This document shows positions 3,483-21,445 of a DNA stretch of 64,000 bases, piece by piece. Under the pieces are notes generated by a model that saw only the letters and a list, made by a program, of their open reading frames with translations, was not told where the DNA came from and made no database searches. Position 1 is the first letter of the stretch. The number at the start of each line of letters is the position of its first letter. The translations under genes and the position numbers were made by a program. The DNA lies in IMG/VR virus record IMGVR_UViG_3300027759_004177, positions 186,001 through 250,000 of that record; one strand, given 5' to 3'. This DNA is from a virus.

Positions 3483-4112
3483 ATGAAAAATCTTGTCTAC
3501 TATCCAGATTTGCCCTCAATTCCTGAACACCTGTTGGTTGATGTTGAAAAAATAGTGTTAGAACGTATTGCCAATGATCCGCCACATCCAAATCCGTTGT
3601 GTCAAAGAGAAATGGCTGTTTCTCGCGGTGAAGAAAAAATTGTAGGTGGGCGATATCGCGGAGACGAAGCAGATGAACCACTACAATCTTGGGTTAGAGA
3701 AAATATTGGTGATGATCTAGCACCAAAAGCACGAGTACGGATTGCCAGCCACGGGGAACAAGGAAATTTAAGTGTTCCACACAGTGATGCTTCTAGAGAT
3801 TGGAGTCTGTTATATCTTGTCAATTTAGGTGGTGACAACGTGGAAACAATTTTTTGGCAAGAAAAAAATCAACCAGTGAGACGACCAAATGCAACTTTTC
3901 CTCCTAGCTATGATGATTTGATTGAACTAGAACGTGTGACATTCCCTAGTCATACTTGGGTCATGCTTGACTCATTGGTTTTACACAGCATAGAAAACAT
4001 GGAAAGTTTGCGTATAGCAGTACAGGTAGGATTCAAAGACGGTAGCACAACTCTACAAAAAATTTGGCCTGAAAGAGATTGGACTCAGCTAGAAATTCCC
4101 AGCTCTAATTGA
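3483..4112 (+). CDS. 2OG-Fe(II) oxygenase-like protein
   Basis: 209 aa. A facial-triad signature is visible: H100-x-D102 (VPHSDASRDW) and the distal H169, with R177 eight residues later as the likely 2-oxoglutarate anchor. The core YLVNLGGDNVETIFW fits a double-stranded beta-helix fold. Such enzymes hydroxylate proteins, nucleic acids or small molecules using O2 and 2OG; T4-like marine phages often carry them. Target unknown. The gene is on the plus strand, divergent from the glycosyltransferase-like gene, preceded by a late-type promoter, and overlaps the convergent TctC-type gene by 8 bp. Confidence 0.75.
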   Translation: MKNLVYYPDLPSIPEHLLVDVEKIVLERIANDPPHPNPLCQREMAVSRGEEKIVGGRYRGDEADEPLQSWVRENIGDDLAPKARVRIASHGEQGNLSVPHSDASRDWSLLYLVNLGGDNVETIFWQEKNQPVRRPNATFPPSYDDLIELERVTFPSHTWVMLDSLVLHSIENMESLRIAVQVGFKDGSTTLQKIWPERDWTQLEIPSSN

Positions 4113-5058
4113 TTTTTTGACCAATTGGTAACCAGGTGTTTCTCAAACGTTCTATGTGTTGATTAAATCCTGCGGTGGTTGCTTCGTCTGGGTTGGAAAA
4201 AATAAAATTTTCATTGTTAAATCTTTTTACTTCGTCAGTTTCTAATGCCCGGCTAAACTTTGTTTGATACCAAGCCACAATCTCAGGTGCTGTATCCGGC
4301 GGCAACATCAGTGCCCATGCTGCAAAAATATCAATACCCTTTCCATTGATCTTCAATGTTTCCACTGCCGGTAACTTGGCCAATCTTTTTTCTCCTGTGA
4401 TAGCAATAATTTTTACTTTGCCTGCTTCTACCAATGGGCGGGCAACACTGATTGGCATGATGCCAAACTCAATGTTGGATTCTGACGCCACTCCAGTTAC
4501 TGCCTGTAGCGGTCCTTGAAAGTTTACATGGCCGACTAAATTTTTATTTGCGCCACTGTTGAGCATAATATATTCAAATGCTAGGCGATGTACTGGACTA
4601 CCCACTGCAACATTAACTGGTTTTCCAGGACTTTTTATATATGATAAAAATTCAACAGGTGTATTTACACGACTACCGGGGTGTGCCACTATCGCTAATG
4701 GACTTTTTGCCATGCCCATCACATTGGTAAAACTGTTGTATTCCCATCGTTTTAGATCTTTTTGGAAGATATCGTTACCTACGTAGGTTGCAAAATAGCT
4801 GGGAACACTGATGGTGTATCCATCAGGTGCAGCTTCATACAATGCATTGCTGGCCAACACAGTATCTGCACCAGGTTTATGTTCTATCACGTATTGAAAG
4901 GTTGGATGATTTTTCTGTACTTGTGTGGCCAACAATCGAAACTGAACTTCGTTGCCACTGCCGGGAGCGAATCCAATTATTACTCTCACAGGTCTGGTAG
5001 GTTCCCATGCCCAGGCCATGAGAGGAGCCATAAGCAAAACAAACAATAATTTTTTCAT
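4105..5058 (-). CDS. Bug/TctC-family periplasmic substrate-binding protein
   Basis: 317 aa. It has a Sec signal peptide with AWA before the predicted cleavage at about residue 17. The mature protein follows the Bug (Bordetella uptake gene)/TctC pattern: PVRVIIGFAPGSGNEV near the N terminus, a HKPGA segment around residues 60-64 and DGYTI. These receptors capture carboxylates in the periplasm for tripartite tricarboxylate transporters. No TctA/TctB membrane partner is encoded here, so a phage-made receptor would have to use host permeases or act in signalling or exclusion (inference). The start is supported by GGAG 10 nt upstream. The gene follows the amidotransferase and diiron protein on the same strand. 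Confidence 0.9.
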   Translation of the reverse strand: MKKLLFVLLMAPLMAWAWEPTRPVRVIIGFAPGSGNEVQFRLLATQVQKNHPTFQYVIEHKPGADTVLASNALYEAAPDGYTISVPSYFATYVGNDIFQKDLKRWEYNSFTNVMGMAKSPLAIVAHPGSRVNTPVEFLSYIKSPGKPVNVAVGSPVHRLAFEYIMLNSGANKNLVGHVNFQGPLQAVTGVASESNIEFGIMPISVARPLVEAGKVKIIAITGEKRLAKLPAVETLKINGKGIDIFAAWALMLPPDTAPEIVAWYQTKFSRALETDEVKRFNNENFIFSNPDEATTAGFNQHIERLRNTWLPIGQKIN

Positions 5059-5080: not shown

Positions 5081-5629
5081 TTACAACAAAAACAAATTTG
5101 ATATTTCAGTTGGTAACCAAGGTGTGTTCATACGTTCTGGATGCCAAACTACTCCTGCAATACGTTGATCAATCCAGGCTTCGCAGTGGCCATTGTTATC
5201 ATACACCAGTCCGGTTGCAGAAGAGTGTAACTGAGTAATAGCCTGAGTATGATACGAATTTACTGTGTGTTCTTGTCCAAAATATTCAACAGCGTGTTCT
5301 GTGTCCATGTGTCCTTCACATGCCTCAACCTGTCCGCCCAGTGCATCTGTAAGCAGAAATGCACCGTGACAAATTCCCAAGATTGGTTTCTGTTGTTTCA
5401 TCACAGCAGTGGCCAATTTAAATTCAACAGTTCGTCTGATTGCACTATCGTCGCCGCCGGTGATAATCAAACAGTCGTGACCGTCGGCTAATTGTTCAAA
5501 ATCTTGATCGAGTCTATTGGGAATAAAAGAAAGCGTGTGATTTTTTAAATAACGATACCAACCGTGTTCTATGCTATCGTATGCCCTACCTTTGTGATAC
5601 AGAACTCTTTGTGTAAGAGCTATCTTCAA
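5081..5629 (-). CDS. Class I glutamine amidotransferase-like hydrolase (peptidase C26/PuuD-like)
   Basis: 182 aa when started at TTG 5629, one base after the upstream stop codon. A longer upstream reading would overlap the diiron gene by 65 bp and adds a non-homologous tail, so the TTG is preferred. The triad is complete: nucleophile C87 in GICHG, and H163/E165 in HPER. ITGGDDSAIRR matches the oxyanion region. Stand-alone GATases of this kind hydrolyse gamma-glutamyl bonds or supply ammonia to a partner synthetase. No synthetase is adjacent, though asparagine-synthetase-like PP-loop proteins lie 1.3 kb away. Cytoplasmic. Confidence 0.82.
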   Translation of the reverse strand: MKIALTQRVLYHKGRAYDSIEHGWYRYLKNHTLSFIPNRLDQDFEQLADGHDCLIITGGDDSAIRRTVEFKLATAVMKQQKPILGICHGAFLLTDALGGQVEACEGHMDTEHAVEYFGQEHTVNSYHTQAITQLHSSATGLVYDNNGHCEAWIDQRIAGVVWHPERMNTPWLPTEISNLFLL

Positions 5630-5630
5630 A

Positions 5631-6341
5631 TTACCAACCGTAGGCTTCTGCTGCCAATTCCCGAGCACCAGGACTGTCGCAAGTATTACCGACAATAATG
5701 TCGTATAATTCTTTACGCATTTTGGAGGCCATGGTCAATGCACGTTCAGCAACTTCTGGGTTTTCGTCTTGCAAGCGTTCTAAACGAAGTGCACCAATGT
5801 TGGCATGGAATGCTTCATCTTTGCCAATGCGATTGTATTTTTCAGCAACAAAAGAATCATAGGCACCAATTTCACTCATTGTTAACCAGCTGGTACTGGC
5901 ACGACCTTCGGCAATTATTTGATAAACAGCCAAGGCCACTTCGTCTTGGGCAGTTTCGTACGATTTCATTGTGGCAGCACCTTTGTCGTTGGCTTTGCGA
6001 CTAAATTCACGATCTAAATATTCTTGAGTGTTGACTTCTGCACCGGTAATGTGCTCTAACACTTCCTTGACCAAACGGAAGTGTGTCGCTTCATCTTGAG
6101 CTTGTTTGGCCAACAGCAACATTTCTTCAGCAGGAGCTGAAGTTGGAAGATTGGCAATTGCTTCAGCGACACCGACCATGTTCATGTATTCATTGGCTAA
6201 ACGACCTTGGAAATGCAACAGGTATTCTTCTTTTGTGCGTGCCGGATCGTTGAACCAATGGCGAATGTTCATCATGCTGGCTTCAAATAATGGTTTGTTT
6301 TCTTCTTGTATTTTTAGTACTAGTTCTTTGCCGGTCAGCAT
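5631..6341 (-). CDS. Ferritin-like diiron carboxylate protein
   Basis: 236 aa, all helical. Two ExxH pairs (E84-H87 in DEATH, E176-H179 in DEAFH) plus E51 and E145 give the six-ligand pattern of a four-helix-bundle diiron oxidase or oxygenase. The arrangement resembles PaaA/miaE/ferritin-like oxygenases more than storage ferritins. The reaction cannot be assigned; hydroxylation of a small molecule or modified nucleoside is possible. It is preceded on the minus strand by an ATAAATA element and a GGAG site, and is directly followed by the amidotransferase start, so the two are co-expressed. Confidence 0.75.
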   Translation of the reverse strand: MLTGKELVLKIQEENKPLFEASMMNIRHWFNDPARTKEEYLLHFQGRLANEYMNMVGVAEAIANLPTSAPAEEMLLLAKQAQDEATHFRLVKEVLEHITGAEVNTQEYLDREFSRKANDKGAATMKSYETAQDEVALAVYQIIAEGRASTSWLTMSEIGAYDSFVAEKYNRIGKDEAFHANIGALRLERLQDENPEVAERALTMASKMRKELYDIIVGNTCDSPGARELAAEAYGW

Positions 6342-6416: not shown

Positions 6417-7010
6417 ATGGATAAAAAATGGTTTTTTTACGGCTGTGCTGACAATGAGTTTACTGTTACGTATGCTCTGTATGAGCACACTTCTGACTGT
6501 TTTTTTCTAGTAGATACAGACGAAAAATCCATGAAAGATTTGGCTTTTTTGTTTTCCAGTAGATATCAACTAACAATTTGCCAGCTTAACACCGCACACA
6601 ATTATTTACCTGAGCTAATAGACAATACAGTATGTGTAAATTGGACTTTGACCAACAAACAAGACATTCCTATCGCTAGATTTCCACGTCCACATATGAT
6701 TGTTTCCGCAGAAGGCCTGGTTGAAAAATCGAATAACAATTTGCCATGGAATTACAACAACGAACAAAATTACTTGATGGCTGCAAAACATTGGTTGTCC
6801 CACCCTGCACTCAAAGGATATCCTACTGCTCTTGCTCACTGGGGTGATTTTTACCACACTTCTTCAATGGTGCCAGGAGCACCATTTGAAAATCGATTTG
6901 TATATACATTGTCCCAAATTAAAAAAATAATTTATCAAGAATTCGATCTACCAACTGCTCACCAAAAAATTAATCAACTGTTGACGACATATGAATTTGA
7001 TATACATTAA
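6417..7010 (+). CDS. Hypothetical protein linked to PP-loop gene
   Basis: 197 aa, rich in aromatic residues, no signal peptide or membrane span. No family recognised. The N-terminal WFFYGCADNEFTVTYAL could be the first strand and helix of a Rossmann-like fold (guess). The 3' end overlaps the PP-loop gene that follows by 20 bp, so the two are translationally coupled and likely act together. A late-type promoter with a very short leader precedes it. The HWLSHPALKGYPTALAHW segment contains several His and could be catalytic or metal-binding, but no known motif matches. Confidence 0.65.
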   Translation: MDKKWFFYGCADNEFTVTYALYEHTSDCFFLVDTDEKSMKDLAFLFSSRYQLTICQLNTAHNYLPELIDNTVCVNWTLTNKQDIPIARFPRPHMIVSAEGLVEKSNNNLPWNYNNEQNYLMAAKHWLSHPALKGYPTALAHWGDFYHTSSMVPGAPFENRFVYTLSQIKKIIYQEFDLPTAHQKINQLLTTYEFDIH

Positions 7011-8142
7011 TAGCAGAGTCGATTTGACTGCATACGAAAAACAGCTAGGCATTCAGTTCTGTCAAGAGTTTACAAACTATCAAACTATTTCTCAACAGCT
7101 ATGGTATGAACAACATTTCCCACACAATCGTTCTGGAGTTGATCCAATTTGGAGTCTTCAAACCCCCAAAAAATACCAATTGTGTTTGCCCTCCTTTTGT
7201 CATAACAAAACATTTGAGGATATCACAGATCAACGTGCAATCGAATTAATCAATCGTTGCCAACAAAAAAATCAACCCATGTTTATTACGTGGTCGGGCG
7301 GGATTGACAGTACTTTGATAGTTGCTGCATTATTTAAACATGCCGATCGAGAATATCTAAAACAGATAACTGTGCTAATGAACAATTCCAGTTATTATGA
7401 GAATCCTGTATTTTTTGATCGTATAATTTCTCCTTATTTTTCCTACAACAATATTGATCATGCAATTTGTTATTGGAAAGATTCTGTTGTTGTTAGCGGA
7501 CAACCGGCAGATCAAATGTGGATTCACGCAGATATTGTCAAACTTGAAAATCGCTTTCCAGGGGCCGGAGATATTGACCCACACACTGATCCGGATTTGC
7601 TATTGGATTTTCTTTCAAAAAAAAGCAATAAGAATCATGCTGAATGGTTTTATTGGCTAGTTTTAAATACTGCTGCCGAAGCAAAAATTTCAATTGTTAG
7701 CTATAGAGATTTTTTCTGGTGGGCAAATTTTAATTTTTACACCGTGGGAAACTGTTTAAAATCATACCTGGCTGAAGCTGAATGTTTCAACAACGAACAG
7801 TTTTTATTGTATCAGCAAAATTACATACCCTGGTTCTTGACAGACGACTACCAATTTTGGAGCATACACAATAACAACACCGGAGTTAAAATGTTGCAGG
7901 GCTTGGGAAGCTACAAATTGGTTGCAAAAAAATATATACTGGAAGTAGATAATAATCAATACTACTATCATTACAAATACAAAACAGGCAGTCCCAACCA
8001 GCATTTGTTTGCACAGAAAAAAACTACCGAAGATAAAATTAAAAAAGTTTTTGCGTTATATGATGATGGATCTGCTGTTATGTCAGATGATTCCAAGTCA
8101 ATTGGTCAATTAATTTTGAACAATATCAATCTTTATCATTGA
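6991..8142 (+). CDS. PP-loop ATP pyrophosphatase (asparagine synthetase/QueC-like fold)
   Basis: 383 aa. The PP-loop SGGIDST (about residue 103) is intact, so the protein should adenylate a carboxylate or carbonyl substrate with release of PPi, as in asparagine synthetase, QueC and tRNA thiolation enzymes. There is no N-terminal glutaminase domain. It overlaps the upstream hypothetical gene by 20 bp. A second, distinct PP-loop gene follows 23 bp later behind its own late-type promoter. The presence of three PP-loop proteins in the window points to a shared pathway. Substrate unknown. Base composition is AT-rich compared with the structural genes. Confidence 0.75.
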   Translation: MNLIYINSRVDLTAYEKQLGIQFCQEFTNYQTISQQLWYEQHFPHNRSGVDPIWSLQTPKKYQLCLPSFCHNKTFEDITDQRAIELINRCQQKNQPMFITWSGGIDSTLIVAALFKHADREYLKQITVLMNNSSYYENPVFFDRIISPYFSYNNIDHAICYWKDSVVVSGQPADQMWIHADIVKLENRFPGAGDIDPHTDPDLLLDFLSKKSNKNHAEWFYWLVLNTAAEAKISIVSYRDFFWWANFNFYTVGNCLKSYLAEAECFNNEQFLLYQQNYIPWFLTDDYQFWSIHNNNTGVKMLQGLGSYKLVAKKYILEVDNNQYYYHYKYKTGSPNQHLFAQKKTTEDKIKKVFALYDDGSAVMSDDSKSIGQLILNNINLYH

Positions 8143-8149
8143 TCAAATA

Positions 8150-8156
8150 ATAAATA
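8150..8156 (+). promoter_or_regulatory. Late-type promoter element ATAAATA, 9 nt from ATG
   Basis: ATAAATA ends 9 nt before ATG 8166, with no Shine-Dalgarno in the interval. This predicts a leader of about 4 nt. Confidence 0.6.
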
Positions 8157-8165
8157 CCTATTCCC

Positions 8166-9461
8166 ATGCAAAACAAAATAGAACATACCTCCGTTGCCGG
8201 TGTTAACTTTGAACCTAATAAAAAACTGGGCTACTATTTGGTCGACAACCAAATCTATTACAACAAATATCATGCGTTATTAAACGCATCTAAACAGAAA
8301 CAATCTATAAAATGGTTCTTTAACGAAGATGTGTTTGTACGTTACCCGTGGCACATTGAACCAGAAGAATCTTTAGATGAGTTGTATCGTCAAAGAGCAC
8401 AACAACTTAGAGATGAATATGATTATATTCGAGTGGAGGCCAGTGGCGGCAGCGATAGCACTACAGTTATTTTTAGTTTTCTACTTAATAACATACCACT
8501 AGACGAAGTGGTATTTCGATATCCCAAAGGTGGAGACAAGGATGTAGTAGGAAATGCTCGAGACCTACGCAGTGAAAATACTCTAAGCGAATGGGAGTTT
8601 GCAGCAAAACCGTTGCTAGATTGGATTGCTACAAACTATCCTGGTGTTAAAATTACTGTGTATGATTACGCAGGAACTTTAGTGCGTGAAGCCGAAGAGA
8701 AGGATGAAAGTTGGGTGTTCCGTACTAGACACTATTTACAACCCGGTCACATAAACAAATACCAAGCCATAGCCATAGACGACCATAAACGGTTAGTTGA
8801 AAAGAACCTGCGGATTTGTGTGTTATGGGGTGTTGATAAACCTAAAATTACTGTCAAAGACGGAAAGTTTTTTTTATATTTTCATGACGGGCAAGCCAGT
8901 CATAGCGATCAAGCGATAGGCGAATACACCAACATAACCAATGAATTTTTTTATTGGAGCCCTGACGCCTGCAAATTATTGGCCAAACAAGCACATTCAA
9001 TAAAAAACTGGTTTGAAATGCCCGCCCACTATAATATGCAAAACGTATTACATTGGCCCAATTCAAACTTTAGTGGTAGAACTATCTACGAACAAATTGT
9101 TAAAAGTGTAATTTATTCTAAATACGATTTGCAAACATTTCAAACCAATAAGCCAACTAACAATATTTGGAACGAAATGGATTATTGGTTCCATCACAAT
9201 TTTAAAGATACTCAAGCATATCGTGTATGGGAATCTGGTATTGACTATTTGATCTCTACCTTGGATCCTGCATTTGTTGAAAACCTACACGGTCGACCGA
9301 CCAATATCATGATGTTTGAAACCCCAATGTATTATTTTGGAGATAGCAATATACCTAATTTGGCCTTGCCGTTCACTCCCGGGGCAGATCTTAAAGAGAA
9401 AAGAGTCGATTCTTCTAAGCAACATAGACACGTGATCAACGGACGCCTGGTAATTTATTAA
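8166..9461 (+). CDS. PP-loop protein, intact SGGSDS (paralogue A)
   Basis: 431 aa. The PP-loop SGGSDSTT near residue 96 follows the helix YRQRAQQLRDEYDYIR. The whole protein is clearly paralogous to 13538-14725, sharing long stretches such as NNIPLDEVVFRYPK and ENTLSEWE. It also shares ICxLWGVDKPK. An N-terminal small beta domain (KLGYYLVDNQIYYN) precedes the PP-loop domain. Expected chemistry is ATP-dependent adenylation; the substrate is unknown. The late-type promoter sits 9 nt before the start. Two tRNA genes lie immediately downstream on the opposite strand. Confidence 0.75.
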   Translation: MQNKIEHTSVAGVNFEPNKKLGYYLVDNQIYYNKYHALLNASKQKQSIKWFFNEDVFVRYPWHIEPEESLDELYRQRAQQLRDEYDYIRVEASGGSDSTTVIFSFLLNNIPLDEVVFRYPKGGDKDVVGNARDLRSENTLSEWEFAAKPLLDWIATNYPGVKITVYDYAGTLVREAEEKDESWVFRTRHYLQPGHINKYQAIAIDDHKRLVEKNLRICVLWGVDKPKITVKDGKFFLYFHDGQASHSDQAIGEYTNITNEFFYWSPDACKLLAKQAHSIKNWFEMPAHYNMQNVLHWPNSNFSGRTIYEQIVKSVIYSKYDLQTFQTNKPTNNIWNEMDYWFHHNFKDTQAYRVWESGIDYLISTLDPAFVENLHGRPTNIMMFETPMYYFGDSNIPNLALPFTPGADLKEKRVDSSKQHRHVINGRLVIY

Positions 9462-9462
9462 T

Positions 9463-9538
9463 TGGTGCCCTGGGTAGGATTCGAACCCACAATGTCCGCT
9501 CGGTAAAGCGGTGACTATACCATTTTGTCTACCAGGGT
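9463..9538 (-). tRNA. tRNA with 6-nt anticodon loop, isotype uncertain (perhaps Val UAC)
   Basis: D arm (GAC/GTC), T arm (GTGGG...TTCGAAT...CCTAC), acceptor and CCA are recognisable. Position 1-72 is an A-C mismatch. The anticodon arm is 16 rather than 17 nt: stem CCGCT/AGCGG leaves a loop of only TTACCG. The anticodon therefore cannot be read safely. Either the tRNA is non-functional or unusual, or a base is missing in the assembly. Confidence 0.6.
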
Positions 9539-9540
9539 GT

Positions 9541-9615
9541 TGGTTGCGGGGGACAGATTCGAACTGTCGATCTCCAGGTTATGAGCCTGACGGGTTGCCT
9601 CTTCCCTACCCCGCG
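9541..9615 (-). tRNA. tRNA-fMet (initiator, CAU)
   Basis: Acceptor CGCGGGG/CCCCGCA leaves an unpaired C1-A72, the hallmark of bacterial initiator tRNA. Anticodon loop CTCATAA gives CAU. A73 and CCA are encoded. The anticodon stem has two G-C pairs next to the loop (the usual three is broken by an A-U at 29-41). Confidence 0.88.
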
Positions 9616-9618
9616 ATA

Positions 9619-10221
9619 TTACATTGTAGGACCGTTGCCGTTCCTAAATCCAATACTTCCACCCTCTGCTTCAATCCGTTTGATAACATCTTCGAACAAG
9701 ATAGGTGCAAAATCTGTCTGTTCCACGCATACGCAATGATAACGGACATCAATCCATTGCCTTACTCCGCGGGTCATAAACTCGTGTGTGGTTTGTGCTG
9801 TTTTCATCACGCGATTAGCATGGAGGTGACCGTGGATGTTGACACCAAAACGACCCAGGCTTTCCTCATGGATAGGGATATGACTGAGTATCATTCCGTT
9901 CATCACATGGTAAGCACGCAGTTCACGAAAGTGTTCACGATAGTCGGTATCCCGGAAGATGTCGTGATTACCGCGGATAAGAACTTTGTCACCGTTGAGC
10001 CTACGCATAATAGCAAGACTCTTACGGCTCATAACTACATCACCCAAGTGGTAAACTTTATCGTTGGGACGTACACGTTCGTTCCAACGCTCAACCATGG
10101 CTTCGTCCATTTCGTCTGCTGAGTCCCAAGGACGAAGTTTTGTTACACCATCGTTACGGACAAAGCGACATACACCTGCATGACCAAAGTGCGTGTCGCT
10201 GACTAAAAATACTGCTGGCAT
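9619..10221 (-). CDS. Calcineurin-like metallophosphoesterase
   Basis: 200 aa. All metal-binding blocks are present: D9-x-H11 (SDTHFGH), GD61, GNHD (N85, H86), SHIPIH and GHLH. It should bind two metal ions and hydrolyse phosphomono- or diesters, possibly a nucleotide or nucleic-acid end. Many T4-like phages carry such an enzyme. ATG is preceded by a strong AGGAGG site. It sits between two tRNA clusters on the same strand, so it is probably expressed on the same early transcript (sigma-70-like promoter at 10749). An opposite-strand ORF over the same bases has no such motifs and was discarded. Confidence 0.88.
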   Translation of the reverse strand: MPAVFLVSDTHFGHAGVCRFVRNDGVTKLRPWDSADEMDEAMVERWNERVRPNDKVYHLGDVVMSRKSLAIMRRLNGDKVLIRGNHDIFRDTDYREHFRELRAYHVMNGMILSHIPIHEESLGRFGVNIHGHLHANRVMKTAQTTHEFMTRGVRQWIDVRYHCVCVEQTDFAPILFEDVIKRIEAEGGSIGFRNGNGPTM

Positions 10222-10246
10222 ACGTGCCTCCTTTCTTTTCTAAACA

Positions 10247-10320
10247 TGGCGCCGGTCCAGGGAATCGAACCCCGATCAGCGGTTTTGGAGACCGCTGTAA
10301 TGCCATTATACCAGACCGAC
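10247..10320 (-). tRNA. tRNA-Trp (CCA)
   Basis: Full cloverleaf with acceptor GTCGGTC/GACCGGC, anticodon loop CTCCAAA (anticodon CCA), G73 and encoded CCA. Last gene of a six-tRNA array. Confidence 0.93.
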
Positions 10321-10321
10321 C

Positions 10322-10399
10322 TGGAAGTGAGGGTCGGATTTGAACCGACGGGGTTAGGGATTTGCAGTCCCTTGCATTGGGCCACTCTGCCACCTCACT
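10322..10399 (-). tRNA. tRNA-Cys (GCA)
   Basis: Acceptor AGTGAGG/CCTCACT, anticodon loop CTGCAAA (GCA), discriminator U73 as expected for Cys identity, CCA encoded. It is 1 bp from tRNA-Trp. Confidence 0.92.
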
Positions 10400-10407
10400 G
10401 CTGTTAC

Positions 10408-10481
10408 TGGAGCGGGATATCGGAATCGAACCGATGACGAAAGATTGGAAATCTTTAGTTTTGCCCCTAAACTAATCCCGC
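10408..10481 (-). tRNA. tRNA-Gly (UCC)
   Basis: Acceptor GCGGGAT/ATCCCGC, anticodon loop TTTCCAA (UCC), U73 and CCA encoded. Confidence 0.93.
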
Positions 10482-10490
10482 ATTATAATC

Positions 10491-10566
10491 TGGCGCTCCC
10501 GACCGGATTCGAACCGGTGTACTCGCCGTGAAAGGGCGATGTCCTAGGCCTCTAGACGACGGGAGC
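10491..10566 (-). tRNA. tRNA-Glu (UUC)
   Basis: Acceptor GCTCCCG/CGGGAGC, anticodon loop CTTTCAC (UUC), G73 and CCA encoded. Confidence 0.93.
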
Positions 10567-10572
10567 CTAACT

Positions 10573-10656
10573 TGGTGGAGAACACTGGGATCGAACCAGT
10601 CGTGCCATAGGCGCCGGATTTACAGTCCAGTGCATCACCATTGATGCTTCTTCTCC
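10573..10656 (-). tRNA. tRNA-Tyr (GUA)
   Basis: Class II tRNA with long variable arm, anticodon loop CTGTAAA (GUA), A73 and CCA encoded. Acceptor GGAGAAG/GTTCTCC has one G-G mismatch at 7-66. Confidence 0.9.
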
Positions 10657-10662
10657 AAAACT

Positions 10663-10739
10663 TGGCGGAGTAGACGGGACTCGAACCCGCGACCCTCGGC
10701 GTGACAGGCCGATATTCTAACCAACTGAACTACCACTCC
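10663..10739 (-). tRNA. tRNA-Asp (GUC)
   Basis: Acceptor GGAGTGG/CTACTCC, anticodon loop CTGTCAC (GUC), G73 and CCA encoded. First gene of the array, about 10 bp after a sigma-70-like -10 box. Confidence 0.93.
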
Positions 10740-10748
10740 AATACTACT

Positions 10749-10777
10749 ATTATACATTAAACGGATTTAATGGTCAA
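10749..10777 (-). promoter_or_regulatory. Sigma-70-like promoter of the tRNA array
   Basis: On the minus strand TTGACC (10772-10777) and TATAAT (10749-10754) are separated by exactly 17 bp. The predicted start falls just before tRNA-Asp, so it should drive the six tRNAs, the metallophosphoesterase and possibly tRNA-fMet. The remainder of the gap 10778-10847 shows nothing recognisable. Confidence 0.75.
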
Positions 10778-10847
10778 TACTTACTGCTTATCGTAGATTG
10801 TTTGCCCAAAAAACGTACCAGTCATTTTCATGACCTCGAGCCATTTA

Positions 10848-11015
10848 TCAGTGTGAGGGGTATTTCAACCCCCTTGCAGAATTCTTTGCTGTTGCAAGTT
10901 CTGCCAACGCTTTTATTTGTGCTTCTACTCTTGCTACCTTTGCTTCTAGTAACGCCGCTTTATCTTCCGGTGAGAGGACAAAATGCGAAAACTCTTTTTT
11001 AATTTTGCGTTCCAT
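10848..11015 (-). CDS. Small basic coiled-coil hypothetical protein
   Basis: 55 aa when started at the ATG preceded by AAAGGAGAAG, 6 nt upstream; a longer upstream start lacks a site. The N terminus is Lys-rich. Residues 17-50 form an Ala/Glu/Lys heptad-like helix (LSPEDKAALLEAKVARVEAQ). No family recognised. It lies between the terminator at 11035 and the tRNA promoter at 10749; read-through or an unseen promoter would express it. Confidence 0.55.
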   Translation of the reverse strand: MERKIKKEFSHFVLSPEDKAALLEAKVARVEAQIKALAELATAKNSARGLKYPSH

Positions 11016-11034
11016 TTGCTTCTCCTTTATAAAC

Positions 11035-11067
11035 AAAAAACCCCGGAGTGTTTAATTCCAGGGTTTT
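11035..11067 (-). terminator. Rho-independent terminator
   Basis: On the minus strand AAAACCCTGGA pairs over 11 bp with TCCGGGGTTTT across a 9-nt loop, ending in a run of six T. It follows the small ORF at 11093 and closes that transcript. Confidence 0.8.
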
Positions 11068-11092
11068 GGTTAAAATACGGTAATATGTATGT

Positions 11093-11191
11093 CTATCCAA
11101 CACCCTTCAAGTGCTCTAAATTGCGATCAAGCCAACGGCCTAGCACACACAGCACTACGGTCGCATAAATTTCATGAAGGTAATTTTTCAT
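11093..11191 (-). CDS. Very small protein expressed from its own promoter
   Basis: 32 aa from the second ATG (a first in-frame ATG at 11200 would fall inside the promoter start region). The middle of the peptide (ATVVLCVLGRWL) is hydrophobic enough for a short membrane segment. The unit is compact: a near-consensus sigma-70-like promoter (11201-11229), this ORF, then a strong terminator (11035-11067). The predicted transcription start is about 3 nt before the ATG, so translation would be leaderless. No homologue recognised; membrane-active early peptides are common in phages, but that role is only a guess. Confidence 0.45.
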   Translation of the reverse strand: MKNYLHEIYATVVLCVLGRWLDRNLEHLKGVG

Positions 11192-11200
11192 TGTTTTCAT

Positions 11201-11229
11201 ATTATACAATTATTTATCTTTATTGTCAA
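11201..11229 (-). promoter_or_regulatory. Sigma-70-like promoter overlapping a late-type element
   Basis: Minus strand TTGACA (11224-11229), 17-bp spacer, TATAAT (11201-11206): a full consensus. The spacer contains ATAAATA at 11211-11217, so both early and late recognition are possible. Confidence 0.8.
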
Positions 11230-11232
11230 CCT

Positions 11233-11529
11233 CTAGGCTGACATAATAGCGATAGTGCTTTTAACAAACCTATATTTGGCAACAAAGGCATTGATAAAAC
11301 TGATCCATTCTTCGGCGGCAGATTGATCAGTGAACAGCCTAGTCGATATCAATGATGAACCTTTGCTCTCAACCATCGTATCTGCGGACATTTTGCCAAC
11401 GGCAATCATTTCCGCAGTCTTTGCATCTAATTCGGCTAACGCTACAGAATCATTTTCATTTCTATCGTTTGGATTCGAGTTAATATAATTATCTCTTTGC
11501 CAGGTAATTTTAACTTTTTTTGTGTACAT
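11233..11529 (-). CDS. Hypothetical protein downstream of DctP-like genes
   Basis: 98 aa. No recognised domain. The N terminus MYTKKVKITWQ looks like a beta strand and the centre is acidic. FTDQSAAEEWISFINAF suggests an amphipathic helix, as in small ferredoxin-like-fold proteins of the DUF-type phage set (guess). ATG is 3 nt after the stop of the second DctP-like fragment, so it is coupled to that unit. No signal peptide. Confidence 0.55.
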   Translation of the reverse strand: MYTKKVKITWQRDNYINSNPNDRNENDSVALAELDAKTAEMIAVGKMSADTMVESKGSSLISTRLFTDQSAAEEWISFINAFVAKYRFVKSTIAIMSA

Positions 11530-11532
11530 ATT

Positions 11533-12021
11533 TTAAGCCTTTTTAATCTTGTCAATCAAACCAGGTGAAAATGTTGGTTCAAACTTTTCATAAACTGCTT
11601 GAGCTTTATGTTTCCACTCAGCTGTTTCTTCTTTGGAAAGTTCAATAACATCAATACCATCAGCAACCAATTGCTGTTTGGCATCTTCACCATCCTGGAT
11701 CGTGACTTCACGTTCTCTACGTCCTGCTTTGATAGCAGCATCCTTGATCACGGCTTGAACCTCGGGACTCAATGTCTTCCAGAAGTCGTCACGCATGATC
11801 ATGGTTGTCAAAAACAAACTGTGCTTTGAGTCAATCACGCTTTTGGTAACGTCATTCTGCTTCAAGGGATAGATACGACTGTAAACAGTTTCTCCACCTT
11901 CGCAATCACCTTCGATGATGTGGGCACGAGTGTCTTCGGTTTCACAAACAAACACGTCGACACCACCCAAGACCTTGAATGTTTCTTGTGCCACTGGATT
12001 ACGATTGGTTCTTAGCTTCAT
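11533..12021 (-). CDS. TRAP DctP-like receptor, C-terminal half (split gene)
   Basis: 162 aa. It matches the second half of TRAP-transporter substrate-binding proteins. The start MKLRTNRNPVAQETFKVLGG corresponds to the motif after the conserved DLxGxKxR turn, and TMIMRDDFWKTLSPEVQAVI with the C-terminal long helix are typical. The ATG overlaps the TGA of the N-terminal half in ATGA. Inserting one A in the AAA run at the junction would restore a single DctP-like protein of about 318 aa. So this is a frameshifted gene, a programmed -1 shift, or a genuine two-subunit protein. Confidence 0.75.
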   Translation of the reverse strand: MKLRTNRNPVAQETFKVLGGVDVFVCETEDTRAHIIEGDCEGGETVYSRIYPLKQNDVTKSVIDSKHSLFLTTMIMRDDFWKTLSPEVQAVIKDAAIKAGRREREVTIQDGEDAKQQLVADGIDVIELSKEETAEWKHKAQAVYEKFEPTFSPGLIDKIKKA

Positions 12022-12488
12022 TTCTTGCCTAGATCATCTAGACCAGAGACTGGCTTGTCAACAATAATGTTACGGAAACCGCCTGAGTAAGTGAATGCCA
12101 TACCGCGAACATTGGACTTTTCAGTGATCTTCTCTAATAGACCTTCGCCAACTTCACCTTCTAGCACACGGGTTGCATGGTCGTGATCTTCAAAAATAAA
12201 TGGCATTTCTAGGGCTAACATATCGTGCTCAATATCTTCGGCCAACCATGTGGTGTACATTTGGCTCATTTCAATCTTGCCTTGTTCCATTAGATCTAGC
12301 AAATCGTGTTTAGTAACCAACACACCGTCGTTGTACTTCATGCTGTACTCGCTTAGTGTCATAACTTCAACTTCGATCTTTTCTGCACTTTGAGCTTCGT
12401 TTACAAAACGCTGAAAGTCTTCTGCTGCACGTACAAATAGGCTTAGTGGCTCGTGAGCAATTACCCAACGAATTTTAGTAGTTTTCAT
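12018..12488 (-). CDS. TRAP DctP-like receptor, N-terminal half, no signal peptide
   Basis: 156 aa from the ATG at 12488, which has AAAGGA upstream; a longer reading starts in the structured leader and is not preferred. KIRWVIAHEPLSLFVRAAEDF corresponds to the first strand and helix of mature DctP. MPFIFEDHDHATRVLEGEVG and MAFTYSGGFRNI are family segments. DctP proteins normally work in the periplasm, but no signal peptide is present, so this one should stay in the cytoplasm. It ends at GLDDLGKK, precisely where the other half begins. It is preceded by a hairpin-rich leader (12513-12600). Confidence 0.75.
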   Translation of the reverse strand: MKTTKIRWVIAHEPLSLFVRAAEDFQRFVNEAQSAEKIEVEVMTLSEYSMKYNDGVLVTKHDLLDLMEQGKIEMSQMYTTWLAEDIEHDMLALEMPFIFEDHDHATRVLEGEVGEGLLEKITEKSNVRGMAFTYSGGFRNIIVDKPVSGLDDLGKK

Positions 12489-12512
12489 GTGTATTTCCTT
12501 TATAATTTTTTT

Positions 12513-12600
12513 GGCGGCGTTCCGGTGTAACACACCGGTAAAAGGGTTTGCTACCCTAGGCGTCTGACGTCAACTGAATGTCGGCGTTGCTACAATTATT
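12513..12600 (-). other. Structured leader upstream of the DctP-like gene
   Basis: The 124-bp gap between the second TctC-type gene and the DctP-like gene contains a perfect hairpin (CCGGTGT/ACACCGG, loop GTT, 12522-12538) and a smaller one (GGGT/ACCC, 12544-12556). It also has the palindrome TGACGTCA (12565-12572) and a direct repeat CGGCGTT. No T-run follows, so it is more likely an mRNA leader or attenuator than a terminator. No known riboswitch class could be matched. Confidence 0.45.
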
Positions 12601-12612
12601 TAGCTTTTTGTT

Positions 12613-13527
12613 TTATTTGTCCAGTTTAACTGTAGCACTCAAACGGCGCCATAACACCAGCTGACTGTTGTACCAGTTGTCTAGCTCAGAATCTGGAATT
12701 TGATTGTTAGGAATACAAGTATCTGCGGCATTGGCATCACGTACACTTTTGCTACGTGCAGCTTCTACAAAAATCTTGCGAATTTCACGAAACTTTTCTT
12801 CAGGAAATTTGCGTGGAATAAAGATCTGTTGCGAGCTACTCATGTCTGCAATTGCCGGTGCAAATCCTTGATTTTTCAACAAGGGAATACCTTTAATACT
12901 TTCTTTGCCGGTCATGCCCAACCAATAAACCCGTTTGGTAGCGTCTGGCTTTGTGTACTGCTCGCTATCGCCAATGAATCCCACAGCAAAATCAGTTTGC
13001 CCACCCAAGACATTTAACAATGCTTCGTTGGTGCTTTTAAACGGAACAATCTGCATGTTTGGATATTGTGCAGCCACTTGCAAGGCTACCAGGTGCGTGG
13101 TTGCCCCAAGTCCACTGATACCAATGTTTAACTTGGCGTTTCGAGGAACATCCTTCCATGTTTTATACTTTGTGCTTGTGATAACAAACGGTGCAATACA
13201 CATGGGCATTAGGCTTCTAAAGTCGGCCATGTTATGACTTTCCGTTGGAAACAGGTTGGGACGGATAAATCCTGCCGAACTGTTGATCCAGATTGAGTTG
13301 GGAGTGTTTAACACATGGTTGGCTGCAACTGTGCCACCAGCACCAGGTTTGGCATCAAATACAAATGTGTATTTGCTTTGAAGTTTGTTGCTTTCATCAG
13401 CAAGTGTGCGATAGAAGTTTGCTGCTGTGTCTGCTGGCGACCAAGAATAAAACATAGTTACTGTTTCTTTCTGCGCCATGGCAGATAAACTGACCATGGT
13501 TAATAGTGTGGCTAATAATCGTTTCAT
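12613..13527 (-). CDS. Bug/TctC-family periplasmic substrate-binding protein (second copy)
   Basis: 304 aa. Sec signal peptide with AMA before predicted cleavage near residue 18. The mature protein contains AKPGAGGTVAANHV, a hallmark of Bug receptors, and the GxGATTHLVALQ ligand-loop region. It differs strongly from the copy at 4105, so the two would bind different ligands. No transporter membrane gene is nearby. GGAAAA precedes the start. It sits between the PP-loop paralogue and the DctP-like genes on one strand. Acting with a host TctAB permease is the simplest hypothesis. Confidence 0.88.
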   Translation of the reverse strand: MKRLLATLLTMVSLSAMAQKETVTMFYSWSPADTAANFYRTLADESNKLQSKYTFVFDAKPGAGGTVAANHVLNTPNSIWINSSAGFIRPNLFPTESHNMADFRSLMPMCIAPFVITSTKYKTWKDVPRNAKLNIGISGLGATTHLVALQVAAQYPNMQIVPFKSTNEALLNVLGGQTDFAVGFIGDSEQYTKPDATKRVYWLGMTGKESIKGIPLLKNQGFAPAIADMSSSQQIFIPRKFPEEKFREIRKIFVEAARSKSVRDANAADTCIPNNQIPDSELDNWYNSQLVLWRRLSATVKLDK

Positions 13528-13537
13528 TTGATTTTCC

Positions 13538-14725
13538 TTAAAATTTGTAGTGTACGTTACGACCTGAATCTTGGTATGCTGCTTCGCCTAGGTAGTAGAA
13601 GGGACTGATAAATCCCACAAAACCCACCGGGCGACCCATTTCATAATTGAAATACTTGGCATCTATCGAATCAGTTAATAATTTATGCCCGGCTTGCCAT
13701 GCCCGATAAGCATGAGTATCCTGAAAGTTTGTGTAAAACCAATAGTCCATTTCGTTATAAAAACTGTTGGTGGGCTTGCTGGTTTGGAACGTTGTAGGAT
13801 CGTAGTCGGGATAAATTAAGGGTTTAACAATGTGTTCGAATGTGGTACGTTGTGCAAAACTGTAGTTGGGCCAACGTACCAAGTGCTGTAGATATTTATT
13901 TGATTCTTGGTTGAACCAGTTTTTTATTGTGTGTGCTTGTTTGTTGACCAGGTCTGGCAAGTCTGGCGCCCAAAAGAAATACACATTGGCAATGTTGGTG
14001 TAGTGTTTGATGTCAGGGTTGGCAGCATTGGCCTGGATGTCCATGAAGTACAGGTACCACTTTGAATCCCGGATACAGACCTTGGGTTTGTCAACACCCC
14101 ATAACATACATATTCGCTTACCAGAGTCTAGCAATAGTTTATGTTCGTGTACTGCATCAACTGTGTGTTTGAACGGATGCCCGGGTTGGAAATAGTCTCT
14201 AGTTTTAAACACCCATGACTCATCATGTTCACTGGCCAGCATGTCCGCACTATAATCGTGTACTGTAATTTTGACTCTGGGATAGTTGGTAGCAATCCAT
14301 TCTAGTGTAGGTCTGGCAGCATACTCCCATTCACTCAGTGTGTTCTCCGGTTTGGTGTTGAATGGATCTGCTGATACATTCTTTTCACCTGTTTTGGGAT
14401 AACGAAATACCACTTCGTCTAACGGAATGTTATTGAGTAAAAACGCATACAATACTGTGTTGCCATCAGCACCGCCACTTAGTTCTAAACGAATGTAATC
14501 GTATTCATCTCTAATTTGCTGTGCCCGTTGCCGATACAACTGTTGTAGATCAGTTTCAGGTTCTGTTAGCCAATCATGTGCGTCAAATACTGTGCGGTTA
14601 AAATGCCACTCAGGAAAGACGTTGGTTTTTGTACCCGCAATTAGGGCTTCTACCTTGCTGTAGTATCGGGTATCTCCAACTTGGTAAAAGCCTAATTTAG
14701 GGTTTTGTTCAATAGTGTACTGCAT
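13538..14725 (-). CDS. PP-loop protein with altered motif SGGADG (paralogue B)
   Basis: 395 aa, paralogous over its whole length to 8166-9461. The PP-loop reads SGGADGNT where the paralogue has SGGSDSTT, so the second Ser that binds pyrophosphate is replaced by Gly. The surrounding NNIPLDEVVFRYPK segment is unchanged. The protein may be a non-catalytic partner, or have shifted chemistry. It lies between the TctC-type gene and ahpD on the minus strand. Both paralogues keep ICxLWGVDKPK near the middle and NEMDYWF near the C terminus, which could be substrate-binding segments. Confidence 0.72.
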   Translation of the reverse strand: MQYTIEQNPKLGFYQVGDTRYYSKVEALIAGTKTNVFPEWHFNRTVFDAHDWLTEPETDLQQLYRQRAQQIRDEYDYIRLELSGGADGNTVLYAFLLNNIPLDEVVFRYPKTGEKNVSADPFNTKPENTLSEWEYAARPTLEWIATNYPRVKITVHDYSADMLASEHDESWVFKTRDYFQPGHPFKHTVDAVHEHKLLLDSGKRICMLWGVDKPKVCIRDSKWYLYFMDIQANAANPDIKHYTNIANVYFFWAPDLPDLVNKQAHTIKNWFNQESNKYLQHLVRWPNYSFAQRTTFEHIVKPLIYPDYDPTTFQTSKPTNSFYNEMDYWFYTNFQDTHAYRAWQAGHKLLTDSIDAKYFNYEMGRPVGFVGFISPFYYLGEAAYQDSGRNVHYKF

Positions 14726-14736
14726 TAATTGTAGAA

Positions 14737-15243
14737 TTAACTGTTCAAAACTTTGGCAACACTATTCATAACACTAGCAATACGTCCGATGTCACGTAGG
14801 TTTTCTACTGTGTATCCTTCTTGCTTGAGTGTTTCATAGTGTGCTTTCACACAGAAGTGGCACTTGCCAACAATACTAGCTGCCAGGCTAAATGCTTCAA
14901 AGTTTGACTTGGTAGTTCCGCCATGACTAGCAATAGCGTTCATGCGTAACTGTGCTGGCAGGCCTTTAAGAGCAGGATCGTCAGCCATTTCAACATATGG
15001 ATACCACACATTGTTTTGTGCCATAATACTTGCGGCAGTCATTGCTGACTCTGCATGTACAGGTGCGTCTGCTAAAATCAAACTGACTAGTTTGCCGTTG
15101 CCTGTTGCGGCTAGTGCGGCTACAGCACAACCCATAGCCACATCCGCATCCAATGTGCTACGCACTAGAACAGCATCAAGATTTAACTTGGTGTCCTTTG
15201 CGTAGTCTGGCAACGCTTCTTTGACGGCGTCGTTGAAAGCCAT
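14737..15243 (-). CDS. ahpD: AhpD-like alkylhydroperoxidase
   Basis: 168 aa. The catalytic pattern E116...C128-x2-C131-x3-H135 has the same spacing as Mycobacterium AhpD (E118, C130, C133, H137). AhpD recycles AhpC, or acts as a weak peroxidase, through the CxxC dithiol. The gene directly follows ahpC (adjacent or overlapping start/stop at 15243), forming an ahpCD operon. Such a pair in a phage would protect the infected cell from peroxide. Length close to the family norm of about 175 aa. Confidence 0.88.
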   Translation of the reverse strand: MAFNDAVKEALPDYAKDTKLNLDAVLVRSTLDADVAMGCAVAALAATGNGKLVSLILADAPVHAESAMTAASIMAQNNVWYPYVEMADDPALKGLPAQLRMNAIASHGGTTKSNFEAFSLAASIVGKCHFCVKAHYETLKQEGYTVENLRDIGRIASVMNSVAKVLNS

Positions 15244-15782
15244 TATAGTGTTTCTCCGCCCACTGTACGATTACATGCACACAGTTCGCCAGTTTGTAAC
15301 GCATCTAATACACGCAATGTTTCTTCTGGTGAGCGACCAACATTCAAGTTGTTGACAGTAACGTGTTGAATTTCGTTGTTGGGATCAACAATAAATGTGG
15401 CACGAAGTGCGGCACCTGCTGGCGCATAAAATACACCAAGTTGCTCGATCAAGCTCAACTCACCACGCTGTGTGTCAGCAAACTGGGTGTGAGTAATTTT
15501 CTTCAAATCCGCATGTGCGTTTTGCCATGCTACCTTGCAGAACTCATTGTCTGTGCTACCTGTTAGCAGGACTGCATCACGATCTGCAAAGTCACCTGCT
15601 AGTTTATCGTATGCAACAATTTCTGTTGGGCATACGAATGTGAAGTCTTTTGGATAGTAAACAATTACTTTCCACTTGCCTTCAAATGATTTTTCTGTAA
15701 TATCAAAGAAAGCGTCTTCTGGTTGTCCTGGCCGGACGCCTGTTACTACAAAAGGATCTAATTTTTGACCTACTGTTTTCAT
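15243..15782 (-). CDS. ahpC: Peroxiredoxin AhpC
   Basis: 179 aa. Peroxidatic C51 in FTFVCPTEI; C-terminal resolving cysteines C168 and C170 in GELCAC, as in the mycobacterial-type AhpC that works with AhpD rather than AhpF. It reduces H2O2, organic peroxides and peroxynitrite in the cytoplasm. The start has a strong AAAGGAG site. tRNA-Leu and tRNA-Ile2 lie just upstream on the same strand, under a sigma-70-like promoter at 15997, so early co-expression is likely. Confidence 0.95.
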   Translation of the reverse strand: MKTVGQKLDPFVVTGVRPGQPEDAFFDITEKSFEGKWKVIVYYPKDFTFVCPTEIVAYDKLAGDFADRDAVLLTGSTDNEFCKVAWQNAHADLKKITHTQFADTQRGELSLIEQLGVFYAPAGAALRATFIVDPNNEIQHVTVNNLNVGRSPEETLRVLDALQTGELCACNRTVGGETL

Positions 15783-17768: not shown

Positions 17769-17775
17769 TATTTAT
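17769..17775 (-). promoter_or_regulatory. Late-type promoter element ATAAATA, 7 nt from ATG
   Basis: Reverse strand ATAAATA lies just inside the 3' end of the nucleotidyltransferase-cupin gene, 7 nt before ATG 17761. No Shine-Dalgarno; predicted leader about 2 nt. Confidence 0.6.
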
Positions 17776-18530
17776 CTACGCTCGATATCTTGTTCCACAC
17801 AGGCTGTGCCGTACTGTATTTCCACCAGTTTGCAAGGCTCTTTAAATGGATTTGTTAGCTGGTGCCATTCGCCGACTCCCACCCTATAGGTATCGTGTGT
17901 ATGTAGATGTTTAGGTGGTAATGAATATCCATTTTCCATAGCAGAATTTACTACAGCTTGTCCACTGGTAACTAACCAATATTCTGCACGTAGCTGATGG
18001 CGTTGCATACTTAGGCTTTGCCCCGGCTCTACTGTGAGTTCCTTGACTTTGGTGCCTGCAACTTCGTGTAGCACACGATAATATCCCCAAGGACGCTGGG
18101 TTTTAGGTGCTTTCCACTCCTCAAGGATCCAACTACTGCTGTTGGCTTTGTTTTCGCCACCAACACCAAATGCAAATTCAATGTTGGTATCTTGCACATC
18201 CATCTCAGGGATATTATCTTTTGTTCTATCGCCACCATTGGCAAAAACCAGAGTTGCTGCAGGATAGTGTGCTCTGACCTGTTGGATAAAATGTCGAGCT
18301 GATCCATCTTCATCATCAAAGGTGTAAACTTCATCTATCATGGCAAGATTGTTGACAACGCACAAGCGTTCGTTCCAAGGCATAAATGCACGGCCCTTCT
18401 TGCGTTCTAGCCATTCGTCGCTGTTTAGGCCAACAATTAATAGGTCGCCTAGAGATCGGGCTGCTTTGAAATAAGCGATATGTCCAGAGTGTACAGGATC
18501 AAACCCGCCGGTTGCCATTACTATTTTCAT
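17772..18530 (-). CDS. Nucleotidyltransferase-cupin fusion (sugar nucleotide enzyme)
   Basis: 252 aa, two domains. Residues 1-140 are a cytidylyltransferase-like domain with GGFDPVHSGH (HxGH at H14-H17), as in HldE/TagD/PPAT. Residues about 145-252 match the type II mannose-6-phosphate isomerase cupin found at the C terminus of ManC: RPWGYY, HxLRAEYWLV, HLHTHDTYRV, WHQLTNP and the end ..EQDIER. The fusion suggests synthesis of an activated sugar, perhaps for the glycosyltransferase-like proteins of the window. Substrate uncertain because the fusion partners are normally in different pathways. It overlaps the methyltransferase gene at 18530. Confidence 0.82.
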   Translation of the reverse strand: MKIVMATGGFDPVHSGHIAYFKAARSLGDLLIVGLNSDEWLERKKGRAFMPWNERLCVVNNLAMIDEVYTFDDEDGSARHFIQQVRAHYPAATLVFANGGDRTKDNIPEMDVQDTNIEFAFGVGGENKANSSSWILEEWKAPKTQRPWGYYRVLHEVAGTKVKELTVEPGQSLSMQRHQLRAEYWLVTSGQAVVNSAMENGYSLPPKHLHTHDTYRVGVGEWHQLTNPFKEPCKLVEIQYGTACVEQDIERR

Positions 18531-19526: not shown

Positions 19527-19978
19527 ACCACAATGTCTTCCATTCCGGCTGTGCGTAGTCTGACCACATGTCCCAACATGAAGTTCTTTGACTCAATGCC
19601 TTTCATGACGCCCAGCCAGCGATTGCGTAACAAGGCTACTTCATTGATAATAGTTTCCATGTCGACCACTTCATCCTCGGCTTCGGCATACTTTTCGGCA
19701 TCTCTTGATGTTAATGCTCTAGCATAGGCTTCTAAATACTTTTTATAATGACGTTGGCGGATTTTACGTAATTGTATGTTAAGAAATTCTAGCACAGCTT
19801 CAATCTCTTGCAGTTGATTAAATCTGTGTTCAGTCATGCCTGGCAAGTCGGACAACTCTTTTTCTACGCGACCACGTATTTTAATTTCTGTTTTGGCTGA
19901 CGTCATCTCGCCTTCGTAGTAGTCGATGAATTCAGGAATAACGCTTAGGTCAGCTACAATTCGATTATAAAACATCAA
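19523..19978 (-). CDS. uvsY: UvsY-like recombination mediator
   Basis: 151 aa. A highly charged helical protein with the UvsY arrangement. An N-terminal ELSDLPGMTEHRFNQL segment is followed by KKYLEAYARALTSRDAEKYAEAEDE, and then by LRNRWLGVMKGIESKNFMLG, which resembles the conserved C-terminal R-W-x3-GIE block. UvsY loads UvsX onto gp32-coated ssDNA. Location supports this: uvsX lies 2.6 kb downstream on the same strand and gp32 further on. T4 UvsY is 137 aa. Identification is by pattern, not by close identity. Confidence 0.55.
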   Translation of the reverse strand: MMFYNRIVADLSVIPEFIDYYEGEMTSAKTEIKIRGRVEKELSDLPGMTEHRFNQLQEIEAVLEFLNIQLRKIRQRHYKKYLEAYARALTSRDAEKYAEAEDEVVDMETIINEVALLRNRWLGVMKGIESKNFMLGHVVRLRTAGMEDIVV

Positions 19979-21212: not shown

Positions 21213-21445
21213 TACCAGTTGGAATCTTCGCCTTCGTCATCATCTTGTTCGTCATCGGCGGTGTATTCTTTGAGAGCTTTTTTCAAGGTGCTGTCTGTTG
21301 TACCAAACTCTTTAAGCTCTTGATCGCCCAACATATCAACCATGACACTCATTAGGTTATCGGCACACTCTTGACGATCCTTTGCAGGAACATACTGTTT
21401 CATAATGGTATATAGTTCGCTTAAAACTTCTGTATCGATGGTCAT
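21212..21445 (-). CDS. Small acidic protein between two radical SAM genes
   Basis: 77 aa with a strongly acidic C-terminal tail (DDEQDDDEGED). The N-terminal part LSELYTIMKQYVPAKDRQECADNLMSVMVDML looks like a helical bundle and resembles small conserved proteins of marine T4-like phages (recalled, not checked). It is sandwiched by overlaps between two radical SAM genes, upstream of a GAGG site. It could be a substrate or docking partner of those enzymes, or simply a conserved phage accessory protein. Confidence 0.65.
   Translation of the reverse strand: MTIDTEVLSELYTIMKQYVPAKDRQECADNLMSVMVDMLGDQELKEFGTTDSTLKKALKEYTADDEQDDDEGEDSNW

Follow-up and report, generated by a model that had tools for sequence, protein, structure and literature searches.

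PP-loop (N-type) ATP pyrophosphatases, among them GMP synthetase, NadE, the beta-lactam and carbapenam synthetases, LarE and QueC, have in common an SGGxDS loop, a Rossmann-like core and invariant Lys residues. Phages are also known to encode nutrient receptors, as cyanophages do with PstS. In addition, singleton 'QueC-like' proteins occur in Bacillus phage SP-15 and Salmonella phage SFP10 and are suspected to belong to another ATP-pyrophosphatase subfamily (PMC6884629). The subject here is a gene cassette around a phage PP-loop enzyme in a 64,000-nucleotide stretch (the window), which comprises bases 186001-250000 of the 356,865-base IMG/VR virus record IMGVR_UViG_3300027759_004177 (the whole record, from a giant uncultured phage, is called G000). 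The contigs used are metagenomic, and open reading frames (ORFs) were called mechanically. An original prediction, made from the letters of the window, placed three phage-encoded PP-loop proteins here: g230 (SGGIDST) and g231 (SGGSDSTT), with the full motif, and g237 (SGGADGNT), a paralogue of g231 that has lost the second Ser (Table 1). The ORF check bore this out, the loop being complete in the first two and g237 departing from it only at the last Ser. The paralogues are 53% identical over residues 14-394 (E 2.5e-138), and g230 forms a separate cluster that is not closely related to either. A third paralogue, more distant (34% identical to g231), escaped the prediction; it lies at genome 116392-117558 of this phage and has the motif SGGADSHN.

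The PP-loop family and its cassette

Sequence comparison places g231 and g237 in an undescribed, phage-specific family of PP-loop ATP pyrophosphatases, and makes g237 the enzyme of a recurrent phage cassette that consists of a PP-loop enzyme, an exported TctC receptor and a DctP receptor without a signal peptide. Relatives of the two proteins are found in at least 557 viral contigs and at 4 loci in 84,980 species genomes, one of these (L158) being a 3.2-kb contig with the RNA described below, DctP and a PP-loop gene. A host gene or prophage contamination was rejected on these counts and because at least one of the 4 matches lies on a cassette-bearing 3-kb contig. None of the 50,697 annotated INPHARED phage records holds a member, which sets the family apart from the SP-15 and SFP10 proteins. 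Searches of Pfam, PHROG and NCBIfam gave no match over threshold (the weak ones are to QueC, LarE, TilS and WbuX), and a sequence search of the PDB gave no meaningful match. A defence system was also rejected, as the PP-loop proteins have no match in PADLOC.

Across the 61 sequences of the family alignment (A1), 12 columns are invariant (R82, D86, S93, G94, G95, D97, F105, D167, G222, K225, F262 and K329), so the similarity is not due to chance; the conserved motifs are SGG.D and G222-x-D-K225. No Cys column rises above 56%, the commonest lying at 54-56%, which argues against both persulfide thiolation and zinc binding of the QueC type. The conserved catalytic Cys of the thiolation enzymes LarE, MnmA and ThiI is thereby lacking. 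A structure-based search, as suggested with the original prediction, was run with an AlphaFold2 model of a family protein (predicted local distance difference test, pLDDT, 90; predicted template modelling score 0.91). In the PDB, Foldseek matched only the PP-loop core, to carbapenam, beta-lactam, GMP and NAD (nicotinamide adenine dinucleotide) synthetases and LarE (prob 0.9-1.0, E at best 1e-3), while six 'uncharacterized' proteins of uncultured phages match over most of the length. In contrast to the known enzymes, the family has no significant sequence match, no glutaminase and no conserved Cys, and has an N-terminal region and C-terminal half of its own; no fusion partners of the former were found. 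We infer that the enzyme would adenylate a carboxylate or similar group and take free ammonia or an amine.

Next to the PP-loop genes, DctP (75 loci) and TctC (74 loci) are found most often; both are confirmed by Pfam, mostly share the strand of the PP-loop gene and stand in wider contexts that vary. Cassettes occur at about 75 loci. In 18 long records, with near-copies dropped, 30 of 47 TctC and DctP genes lie within 1.5 kb of a PP-loop gene, where 2.8 are expected, which is evidence of linkage and not of 30 independent events. The divergences of the cassette genes are correlated (Mantel r 0.36, 0.27 and 0.51), in keeping with modest co-inheritance. In the window, the gene run reads AhpC, AhpD-like, g237, TctC, DctP N half, DctP C half.

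The receptors are of the kinds used by tripartite ATP-independent periplasmic (TRAP) transporters (DctP) and tripartite tricarboxylate transporters (TctC), with Pfam matches over cut-off. TctC has both the PF03401 domain and an export signal, and a hydrophobic, signal-like N-terminus is seen in each of the 77 distinct TctC proteins. By contrast, none of 63 DctP proteins has one when read from the nearest start, and one has it from a longer, doubtful start; in the window, a good ribosome-binding site precedes the short start (ATG 12488). Both halves of the window DctP match PF03480. A K-x-R Arg retained in its C half, and in many cassette DctPs, aligns with a conserved Arg of solved DctPs that corresponds to Arg-147 of SiaP, which selects carboxylates (PMC4646407). 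Unlike TRAP DctP, the phage protein lacks a signal peptide and is often encoded by two ORFs; no isolate phage with a comparable gene was found. The split into two overlapping ORFs occurs in about 12 lineages, with the halves in different relative frames (window 11533-12533; L026, L041, L058, L075, L102, L108, L115). A programmed frameshift was rejected, since there is no common slippery site and the overlaps (4, 17 and 23 nucleotides) are in different frames. In L024, one N half is followed by two C halves. As with cyanophage PstS, a periplasmic binding protein would be supplied by the phage for its host, but here the receptors are for organic acids and come with a linked PP-loop enzyme and a structured leader RNA. 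No paper on the combination of PP-loop enzyme, TctC and DctP was found in the open-licence literature.

The leader RNA and the possible role of the cassette

In many cassettes, a conserved RNA element of about 110 nucleotides lies upstream of DctP or TctC. The consensus that RNAalifold derives from 43 non-redundant copies has four helices with 17 pairs, made up of a two-pair closing stem and three hairpins, and the segments GCA, GACGYC, GACGC, UUUAC and AACGCC are invariant or nearly so. The helices covary, as expected of a structured cis-regulatory RNA. In effect, 99.0% of pair cells are kept paired, 12 of the 17 pairs are compensated, and 127 cells are changed on both sides, compared with 32.7 +/- 7.3 in shuffles; when the partners are slid by 1-3 columns, pairing falls to 23-59%. 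A covariance model finds 59 strong copies in 90 PP-loop loci. The element shares with known cis-regulatory RNAs and riboswitches its covarying helices, a conserved junction and a 5′ leader position upstream of transport genes, but differs in its probable placement at the mRNA start and in having no Rfam family (no match at E up to 10). It has no blastn match in INPHARED either, and no paper on it was found in the open-licence literature.

A box resembling the T4 late promoter (xTAAATA) stands 3-4 nucleotides before the RNA, and 92% of 131 upstream stretches hold one, compared with 7% when shuffled. Late transcripts therefore probably begin with the RNA itself. As a safeguard against circular reasoning, the RNA sequence pattern alone was used to scan the viral collection, and the following counts hold among the matches listed. 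Of 74 distinct first genes downstream, 24 encode TctC, 15 DctP and 9 a PP-loop protein, and a PP-loop gene lies within four genes of the RNA in 54 of the 74. The other genes that follow it include porins, TctA, other solute receptors, AMP-binding enzymes and genes for TauD-like, fatty acid desaturase, hexapeptide transferase and halogenase proteins. The RNA may act as a riboswitch or serve mRNA stability or translation, the last two readings staying open because of this variety of downstream genes. In L286, L269, L298, L243, L276 and L244, the leader stands before genes for phage porins and for a tryptophan halogenase and a fatty acid desaturase. In L241, L250, L251, L260 and L264, phage TctA-type permease genes with the RNA leader adjoin genes for PP-loop proteins or periplasmic receptors.

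The arrangement suggests that, in these phages, a pathway for nutrient capture operates late in infection. As the main explanation, to which we give slightly less than an even chance, the genes would form a late, nutrient-directed cassette, with TctC outside, a DctP-like binder inside and a PP-loop enzyme that activates the captured acid. The cassette would be expressed late, in many phages with the structured 5′ leader RNA as an internal element. In the periplasm of the host, TctC would scavenge an organic acid and pass it to a host permease (some phages bring TctA), and the DctP-like protein would bind this acid in the cytoplasm. The PP-loop enzyme would then activate the carboxylate of the acid as an adenylate for amidation or ligation. 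The sequences show the family, the linkage, the split in export signals, the structure of the RNA and its position behind a late-type promoter box; the shared ligand, the transport partner and the chemistry are what we infer here. A more specific version, possible but rather doubtful, is a dedicated phage pathway in which the 5′ leader RNA, perhaps by sensing a ligand, controls late-expressed proteins for the import of organic acids (receptors, permeases and porins), and in which the phage-specific PP-loop ligase, aided by the cytoplasmic DctP-type binder, converts the acid taken up into a product needed by the phage.

Several points weigh against the nutrient-directed cassette. Substrate, product and activity are all predicted, as is catalysis by the altered g237. 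Foldseek E-values against the PDB are weak (the best 1e-3, with TM at most about 0.3), and therefore the catalytic assignment rests on the motif and the conserved Lys and Asp. Some cassette DctPs have lost the carboxylate-binding Arg. The records used for linkage were chosen for holding PP-loop genes, and the genomes are related by descent, so the linkage counts are not independent events. In the window, moreover, the RNA is inside the gene run, before DctP and not before the PP-loop gene. Finally, desaturase, halogenase, TauD-like and transferase-like genes also stand behind the RNA, an indication of a general leader and not of a carboxylate-specific regulon.

The same variety of downstream genes, together with flanking contexts that differ and the position of the RNA directly at the late-type box, is what would be expected if receptors, porins and PP-loop enzymes were late cargo with no relation to one another beyond a general mRNA leader for stability or translation, the linkage then marking a cargo region. 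This is unlikely, however, as PP-loop, TctC and DctP genes are found again and again in compact runs on one strand and their divergences are correlated.

Deazaguanine, the changed motif and NAD

The original prediction raised DNA base modification as a possible purpose. In this case, a phage 7-deazaguanine pathway leading to modified DNA or tRNA would use the PP-loop proteins in place of QueC or at a step after QueE. G000 has, at 353-357 kb, genes for FolE and QueD, both over the Pfam cut-off, and for a QueE-like radical SAM protein, no QueC is recognizable in it, QueD is found in 13 of 18 PP-loop phages, and 9 to 13 of the 61 family members show weak similarity to QueC. Nevertheless, the best of these similarities (E about 0.02-0.03) is below all cut-offs, and the family has neither a QueC score over cut-off nor a conserved column of zinc-type cysteines. 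The PP-loop genes are about 155 kb away from the FolE, QueD and QueE-like genes and are linked instead to solute receptors, there are up to four paralogues per genome, and QueC of the host could serve. A search for DpdA of the 9g type, which covers one DpdA type, found none; PF01702 is invalid as a DpdA test, as it misses even the 9g protein. Linkage in this genome does not support a base-modification purpose, and a deazaguanine role is possible but improbable. The FolE, QueD and QueE-like genes take up G000:353274-356855 and G000:12-272, and FolE sequence stands at both ends of the record, which suggests a circular or terminally redundant genome.

Phages without QueC are known (PMC6884629). 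QueC in the other phages was rejected, since their weak QueC matches are NadE-like (motif GTGNKVEDFGVGF) or belong to the PP-loop family itself. A third PP-loop class of about 290 amino acids is present in a few records between FolE and QueD (L222:5232-6095 and L212:2043-2906, 287 amino acids, MSGGSDSENV) and is a candidate QueC substitute.

The changed motif of g237 (LSGGADGNT, window 14456-14479) has Gly in place of Ser98, a residue otherwise conserved throughout A1. This change, S98G, is restricted to the window, to contigs nearly identical to it and to L023, L024 and L036. An assembly error, which had been named as a possible refutation, was rejected, because contigs from other metagenomes have the identical motif in proteins of 100, 98, 95 and 82% identity, the codon for Gly shows silent variation (GGC/GGA), and the ratio of nonsynonymous to synonymous substitution rates (dN/dS) is about 0.05. 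Within the clade, dN/dS is 0.04-0.06, similar to that of the few intact pairs for which it could be computed. In a maximum-likelihood tree, a single small group with 100/100 support unites the S98G proteins; it lies within orthologues of this cassette gene that have the intact motif, and g231 falls in another supported clade. Thus, S98G is a recent, maintained variant. Purifying selection of this kind suggests that SGGADGNT is a lineage-specific working variant with an altered loop for ATP and pyrophosphate, and not a dead subunit.

An active/inactive heterodimer, in which g237 would be a catalytically dead regulatory partner of g231, had also been proposed, and both genes do occur together in the window, L023 and L024. 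This is very improbable, however. The change is confined to one clade inside intact sequences, its members retain every other position conserved at 85% or more, and dozens of relatives have two to four paralogues with intact motifs per genome; nothing ties the change to g231. As a general rule, the active/inactive pair was likewise rejected.

A role in NAD or nicotinate-type metabolism, with the PP-loop enzyme amidating a pyridine carboxylate, is scarcely credible, for although the nearest solved TctC is Bug27, which like Bug69 binds quinolinate in vitro (PMC11452294), and several related phages carry NadE-like genes, G000 has no ORF with a NadE-like motif and TctC specificities vary widely within the fold. 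The protein in question, similar to NH3-dependent NAD synthetase (SGGIDSxVV, GTGNKVEDFGVGF), was seen in the related giant phages L218, L219, L223, L224 and L225 and not in G000.

Neighbouring genes and significance

The remaining PP-loop protein, g230, resembles the synthetase domain of asparagine synthetase B in its fold and in WSGGIDST. In fold, its predicted model (pLDDT 78) comes closest to human ASNS and to AsnB of E. coli (prob 1.00, E 4e-4 to 1.5e-3). It differs from that enzyme in that GQPADQ replaces GxGGDE, its relatives having GHGGDE, and in that no N-terminal glutaminase was found, the PP-loop being at residue 102 and the glutamine amidotransferase (GATase) families of Pfam giving no match. 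A partnership with the amidotransferase-like gene nearby, on the opposite strand, would be speculation. As for the paralogue pair, it is not an ordinary host asparagine synthetase.

Elsewhere in the window, a tRNA cluster includes a tRNA-like gene (9463-9538) to which ARAGORN gives a two-base anticodon, 'ac'. At 17772-18530, a cytidylyltransferase-like domain is fused to a cupin of the mannose-6-phosphate isomerase type, and a methyltransferase-like gene adjoins. There are 17 radical-SAM matches in G000 (12 over the Pfam cut-off), several with SPASM-like domains; those in the window include 13-1308, 19965-21212, 21442-22614 and 23679-24833.

Table 1. Cassette, leader and neighbouring features, in window coordinates
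Feature	Position	Strand	Remarks
PP-loop protein g237, cassette member, motif SGGADGNT	13538..14725	-	395 aa
PP-loop paralogue g231, intact motif SGGSDSTT (ASGGSDSTT)	8166..9461	+	431 aa; separate paralogue clade
Asparagine-synthetase-like PP-loop protein g230 (WSGGIDST), no glutaminase domain	6991..8142	+	383 aa; different family
TctC/Bug-type receptor with signal peptide	12613..13527	-	10 nt after g237
DctP-type receptor, N-terminal half, no signal peptide	12018..12488	-	ribosome-binding site aaaggaaa before ATG at 12488
DctP-type receptor, C-terminal half	11533..12021	-	4-nt overlap with N half (ATGA)
Structured leader RNA upstream of DctP	12479..12592	-	85.7 bits, E 7e-23, with this copy included in the covariance model; only copy in genome
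CTAAATA, T4-late-promoter-like box	12597..12603	-	ends 4 nt before RNA
Carboxymuconolactone decarboxylase/AhpD-like gene	14737..15243	-	11 nt upstream of g237
AhpC/TSA peroxiredoxin	15243..15782	-	upstream, same gene run
Second TctC/Bug-type receptor with signal peptide	4105..5058	-	nearest solved structure Bug27
Class I glutamine amidotransferase-like protein	5081..5695	-	ammonia source possible but unproven
Protein of unknown family, overlaps start of g230	6417..7010	+	197 aa; same operon by position

What began as a curiosity in one motif thus becomes a testable system, made up of an undescribed phage enzyme family with members in at least 557 contigs, two kinds of solute receptor, one of them without its export signal, and a class of structured RNA that Rfam does not contain. 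Should the RNA sense the ligand of the receptors, binding to RNA, receptor and enzyme would lead to a single metabolite, and the cassette would reveal which compounds are taken up and modified by large uncultured phages in the late phase of infection.

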